In this document: positions 14,321-25,349 of the stretch, one piece after another
Layout of the letters: each line of letters begins with the position of its first letter
Numbering within the stretch: the stretch's first letter is position 1
Assembly: GCA_018698975.1 (NCBI GenBank)
Contig: JABIPQ010000048.1
Coordinates: 1 to 64,000 of the forward strand
Source: Gammaproteobacteria bacterium
GTDB lineage: Bacteria; Pseudomonadota; Gammaproteobacteria; Pseudomonadales; Pseudohongiellaceae
Length of the DNA: 64,000 nucleotides
Direction of reading: 5' to 3'
The notes under the pieces: generated by a model
Databases searched by the model: none
What the model was told of the DNA's origin: nothing
The model's input: only the letters and a program-made list of their open reading frames with translations
Program-made: the position numbers and the translations under genes

Positions 14321-14896
14321 ATGACCGACATTTTCCTCATTCTTGTAGGCGCAATACTGGTCAATAATTTTGTCCTGACACAGTTCCTCGGGCTGTGTCC
14401 TTTCATGGGTGTTTCCGGCAAAGTGGAAACAGCTATAGGGATGTCTGCAGCCACTCTGTTTGTGCTAACCCTGGCATCGGCCTGCAGTTATCTGGTATTT
14501 CATTACTTACTTGTCCCACTGGGTCTGGAATACCTGAGAACCATTTCATTTATTGTTGTTATTGCCGCAGTAGTCAGTATCACCGAAATGGTCATGCATA
14601 AAACCAGTCCTTTGCTGTATCGGGTACTGGGGATATTTCTGCCGTTAATTACCTCCAACTGCGCTGTACTCGGTGTTGCGCTACTGAACATAAACCAGGC
14701 TCATAGTTTTGCCCAATCAATTTTCTATGGCTTTGGCGCTGCCTCAGGTTTTTCGCTGGTGCTGATTCTATTTTCTGCCATGCGGGAAAAGCTGTCCCAA
14801 TGCGATATTCCTGAACCATTCCAGGGTGCCGCTATTGCCATGATCACCGCAGGCTTGATGTCGCTGGCGTTCATGGGCTTTAGCGGCATGGTGTGA
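14321..14896 (+). CDS. rnfA: Electron transport complex subunit RnfA/RsxA
   Basis: RnfA is an integral membrane subunit of the Rnf/Rsx complex, which couples ferredoxin/NADH redox chemistry to an ion gradient or, as Rsx, reduces SoxR. The 191-residue protein has six hydrophobic segments and the conserved half-motifs [11 protein letters not shown] and [12 protein letters not shown]. Each carries the cysteine thought to bind a membrane-embedded iron-sulfur cluster. The stop overlaps the start of the next gene by one base (TGATG), a sign of coupling. No clear ribosome site precedes the ATG. Confidence 0.95.
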
Positions 14897-15870
14897 TGGC
14901 AACCTCATTTTTCAGTGTATTTCCCGCGCTGGTAAACCCTGTAGTGGCGCTGTTGGGCATGGGGCTTGGTATTGGCGCCCTGCTCGCCTTTGTGTCGAAA
15001 ACTTTTCGCCTGGAATCTGATCCCGTGGTGGAAAAAATAAACGACCTGCTGCCGCAAACTCAATGCGGTCAGTGTGGCTATCCTGGCTGCAAACCCTATG
15101 CAGAAGCCATTGCCCTGGGAGATGCCATTAATAAATGTCCTCCTGGCGGCGAAAAAACAATTCTCAATCTGGCTGATTTACTTAACGTGCAGGTGCTACC
15201 TCTTGATGAAACCTACGGTCATGAGGAAATAAAGAAGGTCGCTTTTATTCGGGAGGAAGAATGTATTGGCTGCGCCAAATGCATCCCCGCCTGCCCCGTG
15301 GATGCCATTCTTGGGGCACCCAAATTCATGCATACGGTTATTGAAAGCGAATGTACCGGTTGCGATCTCTGCATTGAACCTTGTCCTGTGGACTGCATCG
15401 ATTTGATTGAAGTAAGCCAGGTTTCTTTATCCTCTTCCCAGGCAATGAATGATGAAGAGTACCTTGCCTGTATAAATTGCGGGTTGTGCATAGATGAATG
15501 CCCTGTCGATATTTTGCCCCATGAACTTTATTGGGCCTGCCGTGGAGGAGAACTGGAACAGGCAGAAGCATTGAATTTGATGCACTGCATAGAATGCGGC
15601 AAGTGCGACAAGATATGCCCCAGCCATATTCCCCTGGTAGATTTTTACCAGTCCAGCAAGCTTGAACTGAAGTCGCAACAACGGCAAAAAGTGGATGCAG
15701 AAAATGCCAAACAGCGTTTTGAAAACCATCAGATACGCATGGCAAAACTGGATGCAAAAGAAGAACACCGGCGCAATAAAAGAGCGGAGCTGGCGAAACA
15801 GAACAGGCAACAGACGTCTTCAGAAAGTATTAAAGCCGCCCTGGAAAGAGTGAAGGCCAGGAAAAAATAA
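14896..15870 (+). CDS. rnfB: RnfB fused to the C-terminal ferredoxin domain of RnfC
   Basis: The protein has 324 residues, against about 190 for ordinary RnfB/RsxB. Residues 1-170 are complete RnfB: one membrane anchor, the CGQCGYPGC cluster (C57, C60, C65, C81), then two 4Fe-4S motifs (C123/126/129/133 and C153/156/159/163). From about residue 185 the sequence is that of the C-terminal part of RnfC. It has two more 4Fe-4S motifs (C192/195/198/202 and C231/234/237/241), [23 protein letters not shown] and the charged helical tail. The first ~370 residues expected for RnfC, with the NADH/FMN-binding domain, are absent from the window. ATG 14896 is preferred over GTG 14893. Confidence 0.93.
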
Positions 15871-15935: not shown

Positions 15936-16712
15936 ATGGACAGCAAAGTCCTGATGTCATTTTTTATAATCCTGACAGTTTTTCTACCAACCTTCACCTA
16001 TGCCCAGGATCAAATAAACGGCAAACCAAATTTAAATGGCATGTGGCAGGCTTTGGGTACAGCATACTGGGACCTTGAAGCACACAGCGCACAAGAGCTC
16101 CCCCAAATCTGGCCAATGGGCGCCTTAAGTGGCATTCCAGCCGGGCAAAGCTATGTTGTCGGGGGCTTAATCCCCTACTTGCCCGGAGGCCGTGACAAAC
16201 AGGAAGAAAATAAAGCAGCCTGGCCAGAGGCCGACCCCATGATCAGCTGTTTCATGCCGGGTATTCCCAGAGCCACTTATATGCCCTTCCCGTTTCAGAT
16301 TATCCAGAGTGATGGTGATATGCTATTTGCCTATGCTTTTGCTACGGCAAACCGCACTATCCATATGAGCGAAGTGGATGAAGCTCCCATTGATATGTGG
16401 ATGGGTTGGTCAAAAGGTCACTGGGAAGGCGATACACTGGTTATTGAGGTCACCTCAAATGATGACAGAACCTGGTTCGACCGAGCAGGAAATCATCACA
16501 GTTATATGATGAAAGTAACCGAACGCTATACGCCAATTGATAGCGATCATCTACAGTATGAAGCTAGCATCGAAGACCCGCTGACTTTCAGTGAACCATG
16601 GACCATTAGCATGCCCTTATACCGCTATATCGATGACAATGCCGAACTGCTTGAATACAAATGCGTGGAATTCTCCGAAGAACTGCTTTACGGAGAATTT
16701 GAAAAAGAGTGA
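15936..16712 (+). CDS. Secreted protein of the GHWEGDTLVIE family
   Basis: The 258-residue protein has a signal peptide (about 1-24, ending TFTYAQ) and an AAGGA site before the ATG. It carries the motif KGHWEGDTLVIEV near residue 160, shared with the genes at 17225 and 35195. The mature part starts near NLNGMWQALG, a pattern common in secreted proteins of marine gammaproteobacteria and acidobacteria that travel with DUF6152 genes. The function is unknown. The DUF6152-type gene follows 44 bases downstream, so the two form a pair that the fusion at 35195 combines in one chain. Confidence 0.7.
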   Translation: MDSKVLMSFFIILTVFLPTFTYAQDQINGKPNLNGMWQALGTAYWDLEAHSAQELPQIWPMGALSGIPAGQSYVVGGLIPYLPGGRDKQEENKAAWPEADPMISCFMPGIPRATYMPFPFQIIQSDGDMLFAYAFATANRTIHMSEVDEAPIDMWMGWSKGHWEGDTLVIEVTSNDDRTWFDRAGNHHSYMMKVTERYTPIDSDHLQYEASIEDPLTFSEPWTISMPLYRYIDDNAELLEYKCVEFSEELLYGEFEKE

Positions 16713-16756
16713 GTATTTTTCACTTTGAGTCAAAAGTCATAAATGAGTAAAACGCC

Positions 16757-17164
16757 ATGAACAGAACACTGTTTGTCACTTTAGTACTTTTTGTAATTTC
16801 CTCAGTACCGGTTAGCGCATTTGCCCATCATTCATTCGCCTCCGAATTTGACATCAACCAGCCTGTGGAACTTGAAGGTCTGGTTACCCGCATGCAATGG
16901 AGTAATCCTCACGCCTGGGTGCATATGGAAATCACCACTTCTGATGGCGAGAAACAACAGTGGATGGTTGAAGGGGGTGCGCCAAATGCGCTGATAAGAC
17001 GAGGCTGGAATCGTGATTCCCTGCCATCAGGAACAGCAATCAAGGTATTGGGCTATAGGGCCAGAGATGGTTCTTTCCGCGCCAATGGCACCGATATTAC
17101 TCTACCGGATGGTTCCAAACTGTTTGTAGGCTCTTCAGGCCGGGGTGCCCCGGGCAGCGAATAA
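16757..17164 (+). CDS. DUF6152-type secreted protein
   Basis: The 135-residue protein has a signal peptide ending near AFAHH. The hallmark HHSFASEFD is followed by ELEGLVTRMQWSNPHAWVH, a small beta-barrel fold of unknown role. It is the downstream partner of the gene at 15936, and its sequence matches the N-terminal half of the protein at 35195. The gene ends in a bidirectional terminator shared with the convergent gene at 17225. Confidence 0.75.
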   Translation: MNRTLFVTLVLFVISSVPVSAFAHHSFASEFDINQPVELEGLVTRMQWSNPHAWVHMEITTSDGEKQQWMVEGGAPNALIRRGWNRDSLPSGTAIKVLGYRARDGSFRANGTDITLPDGSKLFVGSSGRGAPGSE

Positions 17165-17180
17165 TAGTTCCAAAAGAAAT

Positions 17181-17210
17181 AAAAAAGGCGCATTTTGCGC
17201 CTTTTTTATT
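17181..17210. terminator. Bidirectional terminator
   Basis: A perfect 12-bp stem (AAAAAAGGCGCA / TGCGCCTTTTTT) with a 3-base loop has an A-run before it and a T-run after it. It lies between two convergent genes and can serve both. Confidence 0.9.
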
Positions 17211-17224
17211 AGCGAAGATAACAA

Positions 17225-18355
17225 TTAATCAACTGCATCCTCTTCACCAATTTGAATAATTTCAGCACCTTCCTGAGGAGCAGCATAGATACTGAAACCT
17301 CCTGCCCTCTCCGGCATAGTTTCCCCATTAGCCATAGCTTCAGCGACCTGCCTTTCCCATGCTCTTTCACCACTTAATGTGTGACCCACGGCCCCATTTC
17401 CTTCATGACAGGAATATTCATAAAGTTGATAGCCTGGCTGACTGGTTATGGTAAAACGAAAGGAAAATGGCGCTGTATAAGTCACCGGGTCATTCACTGT
17501 AATGATGTAATCAATCATTTCATCATCAACCCTGGTCATATGTTCAGTCATTACCATTTCTTCACTGTGACGAGTGCCATTGCCATTGCCACCGATACTG
17601 GTCTTATCAGTTAGATTACGCGTTTCAATGACCAGTGTATCTCCATCCCAATAACCACGAGAACTGCCCAAATATTGGCGAATGGCATCATCCAGAAAAG
17701 GACTCTCATCAATGGGAATTATACGAGTGTCATGAATCATCTCGTAGGATATGACTACTGAATCGGGCGTTTGCAAAATGCGCATACCGTTACCGTAGAG
17801 TACCGGCAATACCGAACCCACAATGCCACGACTGATACAGCGGTCATAATTAGTAAAATCTTCCACAGTATTGAATGGACCACTGCCAAATGTGCCCCGA
17901 TCTCTTGGCGCTGCTCGAGATTTACCGACGTCTGTCATCTCAGGAATTCGACCATTTGGCGGATCTATAACCAGAGAGGTATAGCCAAAAGTTCGAATAC
18001 CATATTCATTGCGTAAAAAAGTTTCATCATTTACTGCACGATCCATTCCTGCCTGATCTCGATTGGCGCGCTGCGCAAATTCTTCAGCTGTAAGGGAAGT
18101 ACGCTCACCGAACTGCTGTGGCCTGTTGGTGGGTACCCCACGCATATCATCACTGGTCCAGATGCCCTGAATATCTGGATGGCCCCAGGATGTTCTCGGT
18201 GGCTGCCAGTTATTATCGTTACGGGAAGCCGCAAGGGATTCAGCCGGAACAGACCGGATATCATTCACCATCGCCTCCTGAGCCAGGGTAGCATTGGAAA
18301 AAAGCGACATAGACATAATAGCCAGTGTTCTGTATGCGTTTTTCAAGATTTGCAT
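17225..18355 (-). CDS. Secreted protein of the GHWEGDTLVIE family (longer form)
   Basis: From ATG 18355 (GGGAG ribosome site) the protein has 376 residues and a signal peptide ending near NATLAQ. An upstream in-frame start at 18445 would bury this signal and is rejected. The central region carries RGYWDGDTLVIETRNLTD, the same motif as in the genes at 15936 and 35195, preceded by HPDIQGIWTSDD. It is a paralogue convergent with the DUF6152-type pair. Function unknown. Confidence 0.72.
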   Translation of the reverse strand: MQILKNAYRTLAIMSMSLFSNATLAQEAMVNDIRSVPAESLAASRNDNNWQPPRTSWGHPDIQGIWTSDDMRGVPTNRPQQFGERTSLTAEEFAQRANRDQAGMDRAVNDETFLRNEYGIRTFGYTSLVIDPPNGRIPEMTDVGKSRAAPRDRGTFGSGPFNTVEDFTNYDRCISRGIVGSVLPVLYGNGMRILQTPDSVVISYEMIHDTRIIPIDESPFLDDAIRQYLGSSRGYWDGDTLVIETRNLTDKTSIGGNGNGTRHSEEMVMTEHMTRVDDEMIDYIITVNDPVTYTAPFSFRFTITSQPGYQLYEYSCHEGNGAVGHTLSGERAWERQVAEAMANGETMPERAGGFSIYAAPQEGAEIIQIGEEDAVD

Positions 18356-18532
18356 AATCACTCCCTTTTTATAACGATGCATTACCAAATACGCTTGAGC
18401 TGTAAGCCCTTGCATCCGCAGATTCAGCAAGATCCAAACAGACAAATACCTTAAAGATTATTTAAAAAAGTTATAGCATGAAGATAGCATTGAACAGATA
18501 GCCAATAAACCTTCAATCTAGGGAAATCAGCA

Positions 18533-19690
18533 ATGAGAAAAAGCAAAGACAGAATTTTGACCACGCATGTGGGCGCACTCCCGGCGCCAGAAGGTATATG
18601 GGGCAGAAAAGATATTCCTGAAGAGCAACTGACCCAGGCAGTGAGTGACCTTGTTCAGTTCCAGCGAGATGCTGGCGTGGATATTGTCAACGAAGGCGAG
18701 CTGACCAAGGGAGGCAACTGGGTTTCCTTTATCAATTCAAGACTGACTGGATTCTCACCGGTAGAAAGCGGAGAACTTGGCAAGCTGCTCATGAGCAGCC
18801 CGGACTGGACCGAGTTCAGTGATTATTATCAGGCAGCAATGAATAACGGTACTCTATTTGAGCAGACCGCTAAAGCACCGGTCCAAACTGTTGATAATGG
18901 AGAAGTGCGTGACATGGTCTGTGATGGACCTATCGTATATACGGGGCTGGAAGAACTGGAAACAGAGCTGAGAGTCGCTAAAGCCGCGCTTGGTGCTGGC
19001 AATCCCGCTGACATGTTCATCACCAGTACTGCCCCTGCATCTTTGGAGCCTGGCCGGGTCAATCAATATTATAAAAGCGATGAGGACTACCTTTTTGCAC
19101 TGGCTGATGCCATGCGAGTGGAATATGAGGCCATCACCAATGCCGGATTTATAGTCCAGGTTGATGATGCATGGCTGGCAGCCCTTTGGGACCGGATTGG
19201 TATTGGCATGGGGATCGAGGCTTACAGAAAATACGCCGCCTTGCGTATGGAAGCACTTAACTATGGTTTACGTAATATTCCTGAACATCAAATACGCTAC
19301 CACATGTGCTGGGGAAGCTGGCACGGCCCCCACTCACATGATTTACCACTGGAAAATATTGTCGATGTACTCTTAACGGTTAAAGCACAAACCTACCTGA
19401 TTGAAGGGGCCAATGTGCGCCATGAACATGAATATACTGTCTGGGATTCTGTAAAGCTGCCGGAAGGAAAAATACTCGCACCGGGCGTCGTCTCGCATGC
19501 AACTACCCTGATTGAACATCCTCAGCTGGTCGCTGAACGCATTTGTAGATATGCCAACAGGCTGGGCAAAGAAAATGTTATAGCCTCAACCGATTGCGGA
19601 CTTGGCTTACGATGTCATCCACAAATTGCCTGGGCCAAATTGAAAGCCCTGAGTGAAGGGGCCAGATTGGCTACTGAAAAATTATGGTGA
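18533..19690 (+). CDS. MetE C-terminal-like (cobalamin-independent methionine synthase family) protein
   Basis: The 385-residue protein has the UROD/MetE barrel pattern: TTHVGALPAP at the N-terminus, then VDIVNEGELTKG, QVDDAWLA and GANVRHEHEY, and near the end ASTDCGLGLRCHP, which resembles the zinc-ligand cysteine region of MetE. It is only half the length of full MetE, like methyl or epoxyalkane:CoM transferase-type homologues. It may move methyl or alkyl groups between thiols; the substrate is unknown. The start has AGGGA upstream. Confidence 0.78.
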   Translation: MRKSKDRILTTHVGALPAPEGIWGRKDIPEEQLTQAVSDLVQFQRDAGVDIVNEGELTKGGNWVSFINSRLTGFSPVESGELGKLLMSSPDWTEFSDYYQAAMNNGTLFEQTAKAPVQTVDNGEVRDMVCDGPIVYTGLEELETELRVAKAALGAGNPADMFITSTAPASLEPGRVNQYYKSDEDYLFALADAMRVEYEAITNAGFIVQVDDAWLAALWDRIGIGMGIEAYRKYAALRMEALNYGLRNIPEHQIRYHMCWGSWHGPHSHDLPLENIVDVLLTVKAQTYLIEGANVRHEHEYTVWDSVKLPEGKILAPGVVSHATTLIEHPQLVAERICRYANRLGKENVIASTDCGLGLRCHPQIAWAKLKALSEGARLATEKLW

Positions 19691-19726
19691 TTGAGCGCAA
19701 TTGATTCTTGCCTAAATCAATCCCTC

Positions 19727-20902
19727 TTAAAGAAACAGGAAGTAAACCAATCCTGCCGAGTAGCTTGAAACAAGTATGACTGACAAATTCTTTTCGATCA
19801 GCGTCGGTTGGTCAACGTATTCAAGTTTTGGGCCCAGTGGAGCGAAGTATAGGTAAACAAAGCCTGCAATGAAGCCTCCGATGTGGCTGTAATAATCTAC
19901 ACTAGTTAACCAAAATATCTCTAGCAATAATTCCCCAATTAAAAGGAACACAAGCCTACCATTTGGTAGAACATTAATACTCCCCGGAAGATATTTTCCA
20001 TATTTATACTTTAGGCATACATATGCACCCCATAAGCCAAATATGCCACCAGAAGAACCGATGCTTGCATCAAATGATGAAAATTGATTGCTCGTTAAAA
20101 CCGATATAATGCCTGATATAAATACAATGTTTATAAGCCTAATACTTGAAAAAACTTTTTCAAGGCATTGCCCTAATAGCCCTAAGACTAAAATATTTAG
20201 TATCAAATGATTTGGTCTTGTATGAAACCAAAATGAAGAAAATATTCTGTAAATCTCTAAATTTAAAAAAATTTCTTTTGTATTAGCAGCAAACAACAAA
20301 AACTCTTCACTGGGAGAAGAATTTGCAGATGCGACCAAGCTAAACAAATAACAGGTTATAAGAACCAACGCTAAAATATTTGTGCTGGTACTTTTTTTAT
20401 TCACTTGCCCTTTCGCAAGCACTTCAAATACACCTAACACCTCTTCATTATGTTTTTTATTAACTTCTTTTTGTAATACATTAAAAAATTTTTCAAAATC
20501 CTTATCATTCACAAATATACTTTTATCAACAAGGTACCTTGACCTATTTTTAATACCTAAAACCAGCCCCAAATTCTTATTCATTCCACGGAGAAATTCG
20601 ACTGAATCTACATTTTCTATAGAATAACTTTTTACACCTAAGAAAATATTAGGTATTGAAATAGAAGCTTCTGACACCTCAATCTTCATTTTTTTCTTGT
20701 GGCATGTATACAAACGAAACAGCAAGATAAATTGAATTAATAAAAAGGATAAAACAAAATATACTTCGAAAAAAATTTGCGTTTCAAAAAATCTAGAAAC
20801 TTTGTTGTTTGAGAATAAAATAAGAAATAACAAGAAAAAAGAAAGGCACATAGTAGAGAAAATACTATGTGTTGCTTTTTTTATATTAAATTCCAATTCC
20901 AT
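19727..20902 (-). CDS. Rhomboid-family intramembrane serine protease with N-terminal PH-like domain
   Basis: The 391-residue protein has two N-terminal membrane helices (about 13-33 and 44-64) and a cytosolic PH-like stretch (about 70-150). A rhomboid core follows: WFHTRPNHLILN (H227, H232, N236), the catalytic serine S284 in GSSGG and the catalytic histidine H340 in YYSHIGGF. Rhomboids cleave single-pass membrane proteins within the bilayer. The gene is visibly richer in A+T than its neighbours, suggesting acquisition. It lies 89 bases downstream of the double-glycine peptide gene on the same strand, separated by an attenuator-like hairpin. The peptide is a plausible substrate, which is inference. 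Confidence 0.86.
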   Translation of the reverse strand: MELEFNIKKATHSIFSTMCLSFFLLFLILFSNNKVSRFFETQIFFEVYFVLSFLLIQFILLFRLYTCHKKKMKIEVSEASISIPNIFLGVKSYSIENVDSVEFLRGMNKNLGLVLGIKNRSRYLVDKSIFVNDKDFEKFFNVLQKEVNKKHNEEVLGVFEVLAKGQVNKKSTSTNILALVLITCYLFSLVASANSSPSEEFLLFAANTKEIFLNLEIYRIFSSFWFHTRPNHLILNILVLGLLGQCLEKVFSSIRLINIVFISGIISVLTSNQFSSFDASIGSSGGIFGLWGAYVCLKYKYGKYLPGSINVLPNGRLVFLLIGELLLEIFWLTSVDYYSHIGGFIAGFVYLYFAPLGPKLEYVDQPTLIEKNLSVILVSSYSAGLVYFLFL

Positions 20903-20938
20903 ATGGGATTTATAAAAGATTAATATGTAAATATTTAT

Positions 20939-20984
20939 AAAAACGAGAAATACTTTGTTGTTGAAAAGTACTTCTCGTTTTTTT
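20939..20984 (-). terminator. Attenuator or terminator between peptide and rhomboid genes
   Basis: On the minus strand, a stem of AAACGAGAAGTACTTT with AAAGTATTTCTCGTTT (one mismatch) is followed by TTTTTAT. It lies directly after the peptide stop codon and would let the peptide be made in excess over the downstream rhomboid. Confidence 0.75.
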
Positions 20985-20991
20985 AAAGCAC

Positions 20992-21207
20992 TTACCTAAA
21001 CACCTGGTAGCCTCCAGCTACAGTTAAAATACCTATCCCTAGCAAACCTATAGGGCTGACTCCCAAAGCAGAAACGGCAGCCATTGAGGCCCATCCTGAC
21101 CCAAAGACTCCCTGTGCCAACACGGCCGCACTCCCCCAATACTTCGCAGCATCAGCAATATTACCGCCACTCACCTCACCCAACTCATCCATTGTCAGTT
21201 CTCTCAT
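20992..21207 (-). CDS. Microcin-like double-glycine leader peptide
   Basis: From ATG 21207 (GGAGG 8 bases upstream) the product has 71 residues. The first 15, MRELTMDELGEVSGG, closely match the leader of class II microcins such as microcin V and end in the Gly-Gly cleavage site. The 56-residue core is hydrophobic and rich in Gly/Ala, with a likely membrane helix (LGVSPIGLLGIGILTVAGG). It has no cysteines. This fits a pore-forming bacteriocin or a small secreted membrane peptide. The usual C39 peptidase/ABC exporter and an immunity gene are not in the window; the only neighbour is the rhomboid protease. Confidence 0.72.
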   Translation of the reverse strand: MRELTMDELGEVSGGNIADAAKYWGSAAVLAQGVFGSGWASMAAVSALGVSPIGLLGIGILTVAGGYQVFR

Positions 21208-21294
21208 CTTCCTTACCTCCATGTAATTAACTATGCAGTATTGCATTACCCGTTTTAGTACAGGTTTATGCAATCTGCCAATAAATAGTTAAAA

Positions 21295-22155
21295 TCAGGG
21301 CAAGGTATGTCTGCTTAAAAACTCCCAGATCAGCTCGCTGGCTTGCACATCATTATTGCTGCTACTCGGCCAGGTGTGACCGCCGACTTGCCTTAAGTAA
21401 AACATTATTTCGGCGGAACCATTGCAGTCAGTCCAGGAATAGTGATTCACATTCTGCGACAGCTTGTTGTCCTCATTACTTAATGAACAGCCATTTGCCT
21501 GTCGCCATTTATCCAGAGCAGTTTCTACGCCCATGCGCCAGTAAGGCCGGGAATTTTTACTGACGGTATATTGGTTGGTTCGATCATCCAGGGCATGAAA
21601 GGAAATGATCGGGATCGGACGTTTCAAGGTGCAATCATCGGGATACTGCAGACCAGCTACTGGCGCAGCCGCAGCCAGTACATCTGAGAGTTCACAGGCC
21701 AGACGGCTACTCATTCGGGCTCCACCAGAAAAACCGGAGGTATAAACACGACTGTGATCAATATTTACCCTTCCTGCAATATCTTCAATCATGTCACGGA
21801 CAAACTGAACATCGTCAACCCCGGCATCTAAATTGGCATTCCAGCTACGTCGCGAGACTGTATTGGTATAGGCTCCCGCCGGAAACACGACGACAAAGCC
21901 ATGCTGATCTGCCAGAGAATCGAAATGACTGGTATCCACCTGATTTTGTGGCATGCTACCTGAACCATGCAGGCTAAACAGTAAAGGCACAGACTCACCT
22001 GTGTACCCTTCAGGGATATAAAGCAAATATTCTCGCTCCGCGCCAGCAGAGACCAGGCTGTGCGTGGAAAAGCCCTGATCAACCTGCGACAAAGCCACGG
22101 AACAATTCAGCCACAAGAATAGTAATATCATTCGTTTCATGACGACCTTTTGCAT
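21295..22155 (-). CDS. Secreted PHB-depolymerase/feruloyl-esterase-like hydrolase
   Basis: The 286-residue protein has a signal peptide (about 1-24). It has the LFSLHGSG oxyanion region, the serine elbow SGFSGGARM, an aspartate in HALDDRTNQY and a catalytic histidine in VGGHTWP. This is the LpqC/poly(3-hydroxybutyrate) depolymerase family, which hydrolyses extracellular esters. It is first in the minus-strand series ahead of the peptide and rhomboid genes, but the 87-base gap leaves room for a separate promoter. An in-frame ATG at 22140 is an alternative start. Confidence 0.82.
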   Translation of the reverse strand: MQKVVMKRMILLFLWLNCSVALSQVDQGFSTHSLVSAGAEREYLLYIPEGYTGESVPLLFSLHGSGSMPQNQVDTSHFDSLADQHGFVVVFPAGAYTNTVSRRSWNANLDAGVDDVQFVRDMIEDIAGRVNIDHSRVYTSGFSGGARMSSRLACELSDVLAAAAPVAGLQYPDDCTLKRPIPIISFHALDDRTNQYTVSKNSRPYWRMGVETALDKWRQANGCSLSNEDNKLSQNVNHYSWTDCNGSAEIMFYLRQVGGHTWPSSSNNDVQASELIWEFLSRHTLP

Positions 22156-22276: not shown

Positions 22277-23314
22277 ATGACACTGTCGACTCTATTTCTC
22301 AAACCTGCCAAACACAGTCTGAGTACAGCCCAGATCATGCTGCTGGTGCTTATTGCCTGCATTCCTGGTATCGCCGCCATGAGTTGGTTTTTTGGTGCAG
22401 GCGTACTGTTGAACATCCTGTGGCTAATGCTATGCGCATTGGCTATTGAGGCGGCCATTCTGATAATTCGCAAGAAACCTGTCCTTCAGTCACTGGGGGA
22501 CTTCAGCGCCCTGGTCACTGCCTTGTTACTTGCCCTGTCCATGCCGCCCGCCTCCCCCTGGTGGCTAGGGCTCATCGGTATATTTTTCGCCATTGCTGTT
22601 GCCAAACATTTATACGGTGGTCTTGGTTACAATCCTTTCAATCCGGCCATGGTGGGATACGCGGTATTACTGATTGCCTATCCACTTGAAATGACGCGCT
22701 GGCTGCTGCCCGAAAATGTGAATGGAATACTTCCTGAACTGATGACGCTAATAAAGCAGTTTTTGGGAAACATTCCGGAGACCATGGACGCCTTTGTGGG
22801 TGCTACAGCTCTGGATCAATTTAAACTGGATCGGGGCGGCTTGACGATTGCTGAATACTGGCAGGGAAACCCCTTGTTCGGCTCTCTGTCGGGCGCAGGC
22901 TGGGAGTGGGTCAATGCCGGTTTTTTGCTTGGCGGCCTTTACATGCTTTATCGAAAAATTATCACCTGGCATATTCCTGCAGCAATGCTTGGCACGATGG
23001 CAATTATGGCACTGTTTTTTTATGACGGCGGCAGTTCAGCCAGCCATGGCTCGCCCTTATTCCATCTCTTTGGTGGCGCCGCCATGCTGGGTGCATTTTT
23101 TATTGCCACTGATCCGGTATCCGGACCGGCAACTAATAAAGCAAAAGTACTTTACGGAATTTTGATTGGCATGCTTATCTACAGCATTCGTGTTTGGGGT
23201 GCCTATCCTGACGGGGTTGCCTTTGCTGTTTTACTGGGCAACTTCGCCGCACCGGCCATTGATTATTTCCTGCGCCAGCAAAAACAAGAAGACGACACCA
23301 GCCATGTCGAATAA
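22277..23314 (+). CDS. rnfD: Electron transport complex subunit RnfD/RsxD
   Basis: RnfD is the membrane subunit that carries covalently bound FMN. The 345-residue protein has about nine hydrophobic segments. It has the conserved GGLGYNPFNPAMVGYA stretch, the FMN-attachment region FVGATALD with the expected threonine, and FIATDPVSGP. Its stop overlaps rnfG by 11 bases. It is normally directly downstream of rnfC; here about 6.4 kb of unrelated genes separate it from rnfA-rnfB. No clear ribosome site precedes the ATG. Confidence 0.94.
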   Translation: MTLSTLFLKPAKHSLSTAQIMLLVLIACIPGIAAMSWFFGAGVLLNILWLMLCALAIEAAILIIRKKPVLQSLGDFSALVTALLLALSMPPASPWWLGLIGIFFAIAVAKHLYGGLGYNPFNPAMVGYAVLLIAYPLEMTRWLLPENVNGILPELMTLIKQFLGNIPETMDAFVGATALDQFKLDRGGLTIAEYWQGNPLFGSLSGAGWEWVNAGFLLGGLYMLYRKIITWHIPAAMLGTMAIMALFFYDGGSSASHGSPLFHLFGGAAMLGAFFIATDPVSGPATNKAKVLYGILIGMLIYSIRVWGAYPDGVAFAVLLGNFAAPAIDYFLRQQKQEDDTSHVE

Positions 23315-23966
23315 ATCATCGACATCCGTGCAAACCTCAATTGTGAAAACCAGTATTACTCTTGGCATCTTTGCCTTGCTGGCCGCTTTACTTCTCGGGG
23401 TAGTCAATTTATCAACGGCAGATAAAATCCAGGAACAACAGCTGGCCGCAGAACGTCGTGCTCTTGGCGAAGTTCTACCATTCTCCTTCCATGATAATGA
23501 CTTACTGAGCAAACCACTGGCCCTGACTCCCCTGGCAAACAATTATGCAGCAATAGAATTACTTGAACTGTCTGTCGAGCGCCAGGCCTATATTGCCCTG
23601 CTGGAAAACACCTTTAGCGGCGCTATCCTGCCAGTAGAAGCTCATGATGCTTACAGTGGAGATATTAACCTGCTAGTGGGTATCCTCGCCGACGGTACTG
23701 TCAGTGGAGTACGTGTCCTGGCGCATCGGGAGACCCCGGGACTGGGCGATAAAATTGACATCCAGGTGTCTAACTGGATACTCGGCTTTGATGGTAAATC
23801 TCTGGCAAACCCTTCACTACCACAATGGAAAGTTGTCAAAGATGGCGGTGAGTTTGACCAATTGGTCGGCGCCACCATTACGCCAAGGGCCGTCATTAAT
23901 GCCGTACAAAGGGCACTGCAGTTTTTTCAATTAAACCAGAGCAAACTGGAAAACTCTGCTAACTAA
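23304..23966 (+). CDS. rnfG: Electron transport complex subunit RnfG/RsxG
   Basis: RnfG has one N-terminal membrane anchor and a periplasmic FMN-binding domain with covalent FMN. From ATG 23304 the protein has 220 residues. It has an anchor at about 14-32 and the flavin motif VGATITPRAV, whose second threonine carries FMN, near residue 190. The longer reading frame from 23166 lies inside rnfD and is not used. It overlaps rnfD and precedes rnfE. Confidence 0.94.
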   Translation: MSNKSSTSVQTSIVKTSITLGIFALLAALLLGVVNLSTADKIQEQQLAAERRALGEVLPFSFHDNDLLSKPLALTPLANNYAAIELLELSVERQAYIALLENTFSGAILPVEAHDAYSGDINLLVGILADGTVSGVRVLAHRETPGLGDKIDIQVSNWILGFDGKSLANPSLPQWKVVKDGGEFDQLVGATITPRAVINAVQRALQFFQLNQSKLENSAN

Positions 23967-24012
23967 TTTAGAGTCAAATTAAAATTAATTTTGAGTTATT
24001 AATCATTAAATA

Positions 24013-24717
24013 ATGCAGCAATCATCTCAATCAGTAAAAGAAATCACTCTCCAGGGGCTCTGGGGCAACAACGCCGCGCTGGTACAGCTTCTCGGTTTAT
24101 GCCCACTACTGGCAGTCAGTAATTCAGCGTTGAATGCACTGGGTCTTGGTCTGGCTACTATTCTTGTTTTGCTGGGCTCCAATGGCATGGTTTCCTTATG
24201 TCGTCATCACCTGACGCCCGCAATCCGTCTGCCAGTATTTGTACTGATCATTGCTACATTCACTACTTGTGCTGAATTACTGTTACGCGCCTTTGCTATT
24301 GAGCTATACCAGGCTTTGGGAATCTTTATCCCTCTGATAGTAACCAACTGCACCATATTGGGCCGTGCAGAAAGTTTTGCCTCCAAAAATTCCTTACTGC
24401 CTTCTTTACTTGATGGTCTGATGACTGGTCTGGGTTTTGCCGCCGTGCTGCTTGTACTGGGGCTGCTAAGGGAGCTGGCAGGCACCGGGCTGATATTTGC
24501 CAACATGGATCGACTGTTTCCTTTTGCCGGTAGCTGGACTATGGAAGTATTTTCAAACTACACGCCCTTTCTGCTCGCAATTCTGCCTCCCGGGGCTTTC
24601 TTTTTTATGGGTTGCCTGATTGCCCTGAAAAACATTCTGGATAAACACTTTGCCTTACCCGAAGCTGAAAGCGAAACGCCCGAAACAGGTAGTCAACGAG
24701 TCAGGGTCACCGGATGA
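24013..24717 (+). CDS. rnfE: Electron transport complex subunit RnfE/RsxE
   Basis: RnfE is the membrane subunit homologous to RnfA but inserted in the opposite orientation. The 234-residue protein has six hydrophobic segments and the paired motifs LLGLCPLLAVS and IPLIVTNCTILGR, each with the cysteine proposed to share a membrane iron-sulfur cluster with RnfA. It overlaps nth by 4 bases (ATGA). Confidence 0.95.
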   Translation: MQQSSQSVKEITLQGLWGNNAALVQLLGLCPLLAVSNSALNALGLGLATILVLLGSNGMVSLCRHHLTPAIRLPVFVLIIATFTTCAELLLRAFAIELYQALGIFIPLIVTNCTILGRAESFASKNSLLPSLLDGLMTGLGFAAVLLVLGLLRELAGTGLIFANMDRLFPFAGSWTMEVFSNYTPFLLAILPPGAFFFMGCLIALKNILDKHFALPEAESETPETGSQRVRVTG

Positions 24718-25349
24718 ACAAAAACAAACGTACAGAAATTTTTACGCGTCTGCGTAATGAAAACCCCAATCCAACCACTGAACTAAAATTTGATTCAACT
24801 TTTGAGTTACTCATTGCCGTGATGTTATCTGCCCAGGCGACAGATGTCGGCGTCAACAAAGCCACAGCAAAGCTTTTCCCGGTGGCTAATACGCCAGAGG
24901 CGATTTATGCTCTGGGCGAAAAAAAACTGAAAGACTACATCAAGACCATTGGACTTTTTAATACCAAGGGCAAGAATGTCATTCTTACCTGCAAACTACT
25001 GATGGATAAACACGCATCACAAGTCCCCAACACACGAGAAGAACTTGAAGCTTTACCGGGAGTCGGGCGTAAAACTGCCAACGTGGTTTTGAATACTGCC
25101 TTCCGCGAACACGCCATGGCCGTTGATACCCATATCTTTCGCATCTCCAATCGCACCGGCATTGCCCCCGGAAAGAATGTACTGGAAGTCGAAAAAAGAT
25201 TAATGAAATTTATTCCGGAAGAATTTTTGCTGGATGCGCATCACTGGTTAATTCTGCACGGCAGATATACATGCATTGCAAGAAAACCCAGATGTGGCTC
25301 TTGCGTGATTTCGGATTTGTGTGAATACAAGAAAAAAGAGTTGGACTAA
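24714..25349 (+). CDS. nth: Endonuclease III
   Basis: Nth is a base-excision glycosylase/AP lyase acting on oxidised pyrimidines. The 211-residue protein has the helix-hairpin-helix LPGVGRKTANVV with the catalytic lysine, the catalytic aspartate in AVDTHIFRISNR, and the C-terminal 4Fe-4S ligands in the spacing C-x6-C-x2-C-x5-C. Its position at the end of the rnf cluster matches other gammaproteobacteria, so the right half of the locus is ancestral. Confidence 0.97.
   Translation: MNKNKRTEIFTRLRNENPNPTTELKFDSTFELLIAVMLSAQATDVGVNKATAKLFPVANTPEAIYALGEKKLKDYIKTIGLFNTKGKNVILTCKLLMDKHASQVPNTREELEALPGVGRKTANVVLNTAFREHAMAVDTHIFRISNRTGIAPGKNVLEVEKRLMKFIPEEFLLDAHHWLILHGRYTCIARKPRCGSCVISDLCEYKKKELD

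Follow-up and report, generated by a model that had tools for sequence, protein, structure and literature searches.

We found that a gammaproteobacterial rnf operon contains a single gene joining a complete RnfB to the C-terminal ferredoxin domain of RnfC, while the part of RnfC that binds FMN and NADH is missing. The operon lies within a 64,000-nt stretch of DNA (hereafter the window). Judging from sequence, we consider it reasonably probable that the operon encodes a working Rnf/Rsx-type membrane complex without the RnfC NAD(H)/FMN module, in which the hydride port would have become a one-electron [4Fe-4S] port. Four observations favor this reading: the core residues are intact, RnfB is complete, the RnfC cluster domain is kept and the RnfD arm motifs are gone.

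RnfB is fused to the ferredoxin domain of RnfC

The fusion gene (rnfB::rnfC′) is one intact open reading frame without internal stops, and its ATG overlaps the stop codon of rnfA (TGATG). The features of the gene and of the other rnf genes in the window are as follows.

14321..14896, + strand: rnfA, membrane subunit; both [2Fe-2S]-pair cysteines kept
14896..15870, + strand: the fusion gene rnfB::rnfC′, encoding 324 aa; ATG overlaps the end of rnfA
14932..15000, + strand: RnfB transmembrane anchor, residues 13–35; hydrophobic stretch, helix in a low-confidence model
15064..15138, + strand: RnfB FeS domain (PF04060), one [4Fe-4S] motif (C57, C60, C65, C81); invariant in 14/14 family fusions
15241..15405, + strand: RnfB ferredoxin domain (PF14697), two [4Fe-4S] motifs; 7/8 cysteines invariant in 14/14
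15412..15462, + strand: junction linker, residues 173–189; sequence and length unconserved
15463..15651, + strand: RnfC C-terminal ferredoxin domain, residues 190–252, two [4Fe-4S] motifs (TIGR01945 350–434; 8ahx chain C from 364); 8/8 cysteines invariant in 14/14
15652..15867, + strand: RnfC-type charged helical tail, residues 253–324 (NF003454 positions 358–501); weaker constraint
22277..23314, + strand: rnfD; retains the flavinylation threonine (VGATAL), has lost the motifs of both arms (N- and C-terminal)
23304..23966, + strand: rnfG; retains the flavinylation threonine (VGATIT), approximate start codon
24013..24717, + strand: rnfE; both [2Fe-2S]-pair cysteines kept
24714..25349, + strand: nth (endonuclease III), the usual neighbor at the end of an rnf operon

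Residues 13–176 matched the RsxB/RnfB profiles above their cut-offs (NF003475, 256.4 bits against 203; TIGR01944, 250.3 bits against 68.7), and all the expected parts of RnfB were found in the window: a transmembrane anchor, an FeS domain and a two-cluster ferredoxin domain. For residues 177–324, only the end of RnfC was matched, at positions 350–434 of 435 in TIGR01945 (78.5 bits, cut-off 245.95); residues 181–324 corresponded to positions 358–501 of 556 in NF003454 (141.6 bits against 345). Solved structures gave the same boundaries. In 8ahx, which we take to be the A. vinelandii Rnf complex, chain B was covered by positions 12–175 of the family profile, and chain C was matched only from residue 364 of 496. 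An AlphaFold model of the fusion, built on an alignment of four rows, was too poor for use (mean pLDDT 48, pTM 0.24).

The RnfC residues absent from the fusion number about 360–380 and make up the FMN- and NADH-binding part. Full-length RnfC proteins of relatives begin their ferredoxin domain at residue 371–384 (six rows of seven; 452 in the other), counted from the start codons of the open frames. The profile matches and the missing residues confirmed the first-pass annotation, which had described an RnfB fused to the C-terminal part of RnfC with the NADH/FMN domain lost.

The fusion recurs and its cluster domains are conserved

Using the fusion as a query over 95 genomes and counting one-frame matches that spanned both parts, we found it in 14 of the 59 family genomes examined. 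These comprised all six genomes of the window genus (g1), all five of g2, two of g8 (G039 and G051) and one of g4 (G015, in which a contig end truncates the fusion at its start). Outside the family, a profile search of 369 genomes identified the fusion in at least six genomes of the class (G186, G306, G203, G319, G228 and G184); searching 398 genomes across the phylum added at least one more, G787. Single open frames span both fusion parts in G319 and G228, although the profile search had flagged a stop. G741, a further candidate, was rejected: it has a separate RnfB and a 585-aa RnfC-like frame instead.

This recurrence bears on whether the joint is real. The window (G000:C3) belongs to a draft genome of 2.79 Mb in 151 contigs, 95% complete, and in such a draft the fusion might be an artefact of assembly or annotation; but the same architecture occurs in 13 other family genomes and at least seven outside the family, which makes an artefact vanishingly improbable and disposes of the misassembly at the junction that the first-pass annotation had allowed for.

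In a 14-row alignment of the family fusions, 19 of the 20 cluster cysteines were invariant; the twentieth, C159, was kept in 13 of 14 rows, the residue in G028 being ambiguous. Within the genus, divergence at codon positions 1, 2 and 3 was 0.11, 0.07 and 0.53 for the RnfB ferredoxin domain, 0.22, 0.17 and 0.51 for the RnfC′ domain, 0.35, 0.33 and 0.61 for the charged tail, and 0.70, 0.50 and 0.69 for the linker. The low divergence at positions 1 and 2 in both cluster domains, which the linker does not share, indicates that the domains are under selection and that the joint is not. The junction, initially described as clean, is therefore no fixed joint, since the linker varies freely between two constrained domains.

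Three RnfC′ positions that are conserved in full RnfC are changed in 15 core-type fusions. Position 236 is A in 37 of 40 full RnfC proteins versus 2 of 15 fusions; position 239 is Y in 30 of 40 full RnfC proteins and mostly A, R or K in the fusions; position 252 is R in 38 of 40 full RnfC proteins and Q in 12 of 15 fusions. We infer that these three residues once faced the lost module.

No gene for the NADH/FMN module was found

Searching beyond the window upheld the initial claim that no other frame supplies the NADH/FMN part: RnfC_N (PF13375) had no match anywhere in the window assembly, which is 95% complete. Nor did we detect RnfC_N together with NuoF-like FMN/NADH domains as an RnfC of the window, where PF13375 was absent and TIGR01945 reached 78.5 rather than 245.95 bits. 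When 95 genomes were searched, none of the 14 family fusion genomes gave a PF13375 match; all of these reach 90% completeness except G039 (88%) and G051 (73%). A full RnfC was thus not found elsewhere in these genomes, in line with the expectation that fusion-bearing genomes would lack a full rnfC. Of the six fusion genomes of the class named above, three had no PF13375 match, and four partial matches were spread across G306, G228 and G184; the only outside match over the cut-off lay in a 1574-aa frame of G228.

Complex1_51K was found in two proteins of the window genome: NuoF, in the complex I operon, and the product of one other gene, behind a NuoE-like gene, which from its sequence we read as a putative formate-dehydrogenase-type subunit. 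NAD(H) access might thus be provided in trans, with NuoF, the FMN subunit of formate-dehydrogenase type or some unrelated NAD(P)H-ferredoxin reductase docking on RnfC′, where the exposed cluster would be a natural docking place. We consider this quite unlikely. Both Complex1_51K genes sit in settings of their own, within the complex I operon and behind the NuoE-like gene, no RnfC_N gene was found elsewhere in the window assembly or in the 14 family fusion genomes, and the version with an unrelated reductase would merge with our main explanation. The state of RnfD, described next, also speaks against access in trans.

RnfD has lost the motifs of the arms that hold RnfC

In the C. tetanomorphum Rnf complex, RnfC encloses the N-terminal arm of RnfD and carries the C-terminal arm on its surface (PMC9588780); in the A. 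woodii complex, RnfD loops occupy RnfC cavities (PMC11889175). If the RnfC module were truly gone, the RnfD arms would be expected to be free to change, and the arm motifs did change. The N-arm motif, defined as [STCH]SP[HFMQY] or TP[HF], was present in 37 of 38 operons with full RnfC (the exception being G072), in none of 16 fusion operons and in none of three operons with a separate mini-RnfC. The corresponding counts for the C-arm motif were 34 of 38, 2 of 16 (G051 and G186) and 0 of 3. Among the fusions of g1, g2, g8 and f129, the N-arm motif was found in 0 of 13. These counts exclude loci without rnfD (2 of 40 full-RnfC and 5 of 21 fusion loci); the patterns were written after the sequences had been viewed and the rows are related, and the Fisher value of 8e-13 is descriptive. 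G787, scored as N-arm-negative, has a near match (KSPHF) on a protein barely recognizable as RnfD.

The loss of the motifs also argues against an RnfC-type module acting in trans, as the arm that holds RnfC in a solved structure is affected.

The Rnf core is intact in the window genus

In the alignments, RnfA and RnfE of the window have four of four [2Fe-2S] cysteines, and the flavinylation motifs read FVGATAL in RnfD and LVGATIT in RnfG, a reading of residues and not of flavin. The rnfDGE genes (22277–24717) are located about 6.4 kb downstream of the fusion gene, behind unrelated genes, and are not adjacent to it. This split counts against our main reading because it touches the co-expression of the two halves.

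The region that separates rnfA-BC′ from rnfDGE (15936–22155) encodes small exported proteins and MetE-like, rhomboid-like and esterase-like proteins, the names being our reading. Parts of this gene set also occur in G005, G002, G003 and G004. In G001 and the five g2 genomes, BC′ adjoins rnfD.

We used alignments to read the cysteine and flavin residues of RnfA, RnfE, RnfD and RnfG in the other fusion genomes as well. Besides the window, the operons with a full set of four RnfA/E cysteines are those of G001, G002, G005, G039, the five g2 genomes and the two f129 genomes. Among the g1, g2 and g8 fusion operons that hold both rnfA and rnfE, 10 of 11 have all four, and G051 has lost one. G003 and G004 keep the RnfA cysteines, and their loci end before rnfE. 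At the flavin sites of RnfD and RnfG, the 13 operons of g1, g2, g8 and f129 have T throughout, save for an S in RnfD of G013. RnfA of the window is 88–92% identical to that of the other five genomes of the genus.

Some fusions accompany cores in a worse state. In G051, the lost cysteine is in RnfA; in G015, the RnfE cysteines are lost and rnfG is missing between D and E, with RnfA beyond the contig end. G203 and G319 have one RnfA cysteine changed to histidine, and no RnfE or RnfG was recognized within the stretches examined. RnfA and RnfD are hardly recognizable in G787, and the G228 locus ends after the fusion. Fusions thus also occur with a damaged core (G015, G051, G203, G319 and G787) or with none (G184), and losing the NADH module can therefore be a stage on the way to decay. 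The G184 locus (L094, 7897–8802) encodes an RnfB-RnfC′ without a transmembrane anchor, between metG and nth, with no adjoining Rnf core gene.

RseC follows the redox core and SoxR is rare

RseC exceeded its cut-off in 14 of the 59 family genomes. It was present in all 12 family genomes in which four RnfA/E cysteines were seen and in none of the 15 in which one or more were lost, a group in which G041 has a below-cut-off match with stops only; G003 and G004 make up the remaining two RseC-positive family genomes. Among genomes of other families with four cysteines, 20 of 21 have RseC, the exception being G060 (75% complete), and G076, with an intact RnfA and no RnfE found, lacks it. The presence of RseC tracks the cysteine-intact core, which indicates that RseC goes with the redox core rather than with the NADH module. 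Among the fusion genomes, it is present in those of g1 and g2 and in G039. The split between RseC and cysteine states is visible within g8 (L054 and L056 versus L055, L096, L097 and L099), among others.

ApbE was found in all 14 fusion genomes, with two matches in the window genome, yet it was also found in 91 of 95 genomes overall and hence carries little weight. SoxR (TIGR01950) had no match in any of the six genomes of the window genus, which makes the SoxR-like partner proposed in the first-pass annotation unlikely there; the Rsx pairing of SoxR with RseC is therefore incomplete in this genus, with RseC found and SoxR not. SoxR exceeded its cut-off in a single one of the 14 fusion genomes (G013) and in 6 of the 59 family genomes, and because it is this rare throughout the family, its absence says nothing special about the fusions.

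Origins of the fusion and other reduced Rnf loci

The fused domains by themselves (67 rows, 307 columns) gave a tree that did not reject a single origin of all fusions (p-AU 0.286), nor did it reject one clade of g1, g2 and g8. When seven subunits were joined (40 rows, 1461 columns), leaving out the g3, g4 and g6 rows and rows without A, B, D or E, the tree rejected one clade of all 13 fusions (p-AU 0.025) and did not reject a single clade of g1, g2 and g8 (p-AU 0.547). The constrained trees beat the quick free search in score, so both trees are rough. Two or more origins of the fusion are indicated, not proven.

We observed several other reduced forms. In g3 and g4 (L057, 6871–12246; L059, L073 and L101–L105), the reduction is the opposite one: full RnfC is kept, RnfA and RnfE lack the [2Fe-2S] cysteines, and there is no room for rnfG between D and E. 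L048 (7242–9758), like L047 and L049, has a degenerate RnfA, an RnfB, a separate mini-RnfC (177–202 aa) and a short RnfD (275–282 aa), with no G or E recognized ahead of nth. The core that accompanies such a separate mini-RnfC gene is degenerate in g3 (the RnfA cysteine and the RnfD flavin residue are gone) and unrecognized in g4. L060–L065, from six genomes of the same family, have rnfB immediately ahead of nth, and no other rnf gene was recognized in the 16 kb examined. L071 (7890–9737; G066, another family) has a 615-aa RnfD-like plus RnfG-like frame between an RnfB-like gene and nth.

Such variety raises the question of whether the fusion is a decay intermediate, part of a stepwise dismantling toward an orphan rnfB-nth pair, with RnfB selected as an iron-sulfur protein and not as part of a pump. 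This would account for the full-RnfC operons without RnfA/E cysteines, the mini-RnfC loci with degenerate cores and the orphan rnfB-nth pairs of the same family, for G051, which is short of one of its four RnfA/E cysteines, and for the G184 fusion, which has neither transmembrane helix nor core genes. It fits less well with g1, g2, G039 and f129, which keep the cofactor residues of RnfA, RnfD, RnfG and RnfE wherever the genes are present, with the high identity of RnfA within the window genus and with the retention of RseC in g1, g2 and G039. We regard decay as an unlikely explanation. The initial judgement that the gene is functional rather than decayed holds for the window genus, where signs of function are found, and does not extend to some other fusion lineages, whose cores are decayed.

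A proposed electron path with a one-electron port

Two structural reports give the electron path of solved Rnf complexes as ferredoxin, RnfB, the RnfA/E [2Fe-2S] cluster, RnfG FMN, RnfD flavins, RnfC clusters, RnfC FMN and NAD (PMC9588780, PMC11889175). The nearest carriers of RnfB and RnfC are 25 Å apart in C. tetanomorphum (PMC9588780) and more than 30 Å apart in A. woodii (PMC11889175), and RnfC itself is not anchored in the membrane (PMC9588780). Between the RnfD riboflavin and the RnfC FMN, the ferredoxin domain of RnfC forms the bridge (PMC12174285).

In the working complex that we propose, the U-shaped path from RnfB through A/E, G and D to the RnfC′ clusters would be retained. With the FMN domain gone, it would end at an exposed one-electron [4Fe-4S] port, where other Rnf complexes have a two-electron hydride port. 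The RnfC′ port would trade electrons with a soluble one-electron carrier, such as a ferredoxin or flavodoxin that an NADPH-linked reductase might charge, and the ion gradient would lift electrons to a low-potential carrier at RnfB, or the system would run in reverse. Fusion to the RnfB membrane anchor may replace the tether that was lost when the RnfD arms had nothing to hold, an idea that the degenerate or unrecognized cores beside untethered mini-RnfC fit weakly.

The first-pass annotation had instead envisaged five clusters acting as a wire that links RnfD/G/A/E to a soluble partner. This is topologically doubtful because the RnfB and RnfC clusters form opposite ends of the U-shaped path in solved Rnf, which places three clusters at one end and two at the other. 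In a related short-circuit reading, the fusion would act as a five-cluster ferredoxin relay or as a one-way feed to RnfG and the periplasm; five [4Fe-4S] motifs do lie on one chain, and the unconserved linker is presumably flexible. Yet the RnfB and RnfC carriers lie at least 25 Å apart in the two solved complexes, and a complete return arm (RnfD) is kept, and we hold a short circuit to be highly unlikely.

A broader and more tentative proposal, to which we give appreciable but lesser credence, is that these fusions represent a second Rnf class: a gradient-linked, NAD-independent transformer that passes single electrons between two different cytosolic carriers, the first docking at RnfB and the second at the tethered RnfC′, and that may have evolved more than once in Gammaproteobacteria by loss of the hydride module and the docking arms.

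Relation to known systems

The window system resembles RnfABCDGE/RsxABCDGE in its A, B, D, G and E subunits, its order next to nth, its cofactor residues, ApbE and RseC. It differs in that RnfC is cut to a two-cluster domain on RnfB, there is no NADH/FMN module and the RnfD arm motifs are lost; it differs from Rsx also in that SoxR was not found in the window genus. The parts are known Rnf parts, but the complex fails one defining feature, an RnfC with NADH and FMN sites. In the open-licence PMC literature searched, we recognized no description of such a fusion or of an Rnf complex without the RnfC NADH domain.

Na+-NQR shares a homologous membrane core, and its NqrA has no cofactors, so that the RnfC homolog has given up its redox role (PMC12174285). 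Whereas NqrA kept the fold and lost the cofactors, in the window fusion most of the fold is gone and the clusters stay. The NqrA and NqrB pair was not found: the sole PF03116 match was rnfD, and the genome had no match to PF13375, a profile that finds the 450-aa frames taken for NqrA in relatives weakly. The NQR/RNF-like partial systems are likewise reduced, rearranged Rnf-type systems tied to flavinylation and combine an RnfD-like membrane domain with a NAD-binding NqrF-type domain in two subunits (PMC8238504, PMC11334425). By comparison, the window system has lost NAD binding and keeps five genes. It has no PF03116-PF00175 fusion, its only PF03116 protein being RnfD (345 aa). Orphan RnfB-type ferredoxins beside nth share the RnfB cluster domains, and PRK06991 and PRK08764, presumably models of such orphans, match the fusion below cut-off. 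The orphans lack core subunits, and RnfC′ is absent in those examined, except for G184.

Rnf is described as a ferredoxin:NAD oxidoreductase, and its role in aerobic Gammaproteobacteria is only partly settled. The A. vinelandii complex supplies ferredoxin for nitrogenase. In E. coli, Rnf (Rsx) serves SoxR reduction (PMC12174285). The fusion appears to be a recurrent, selected Rnf form that is seemingly unable to use NAD(H); with no SoxR in the genus either, such a complex must have another electron source or sink. Nature would here have separated the pump core from the NAD module, and the fusion Rnf yields two predictions, a one-electron port and loss of the RnfD arms. Together with the related loci, the fusion shows Rnf-type complexes taken apart within one bacterial family.

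Elsewhere in the window genome (L141 and L142; G000:C60), the neighbors of a complex I operon are apbE and a transhydrogenase-like gene. In G014 and G033, apbE is located about 7 kb from a gene taken for nqrA. This suggests that complex I may have replaced Na+-NQR at the G000:C60 place.
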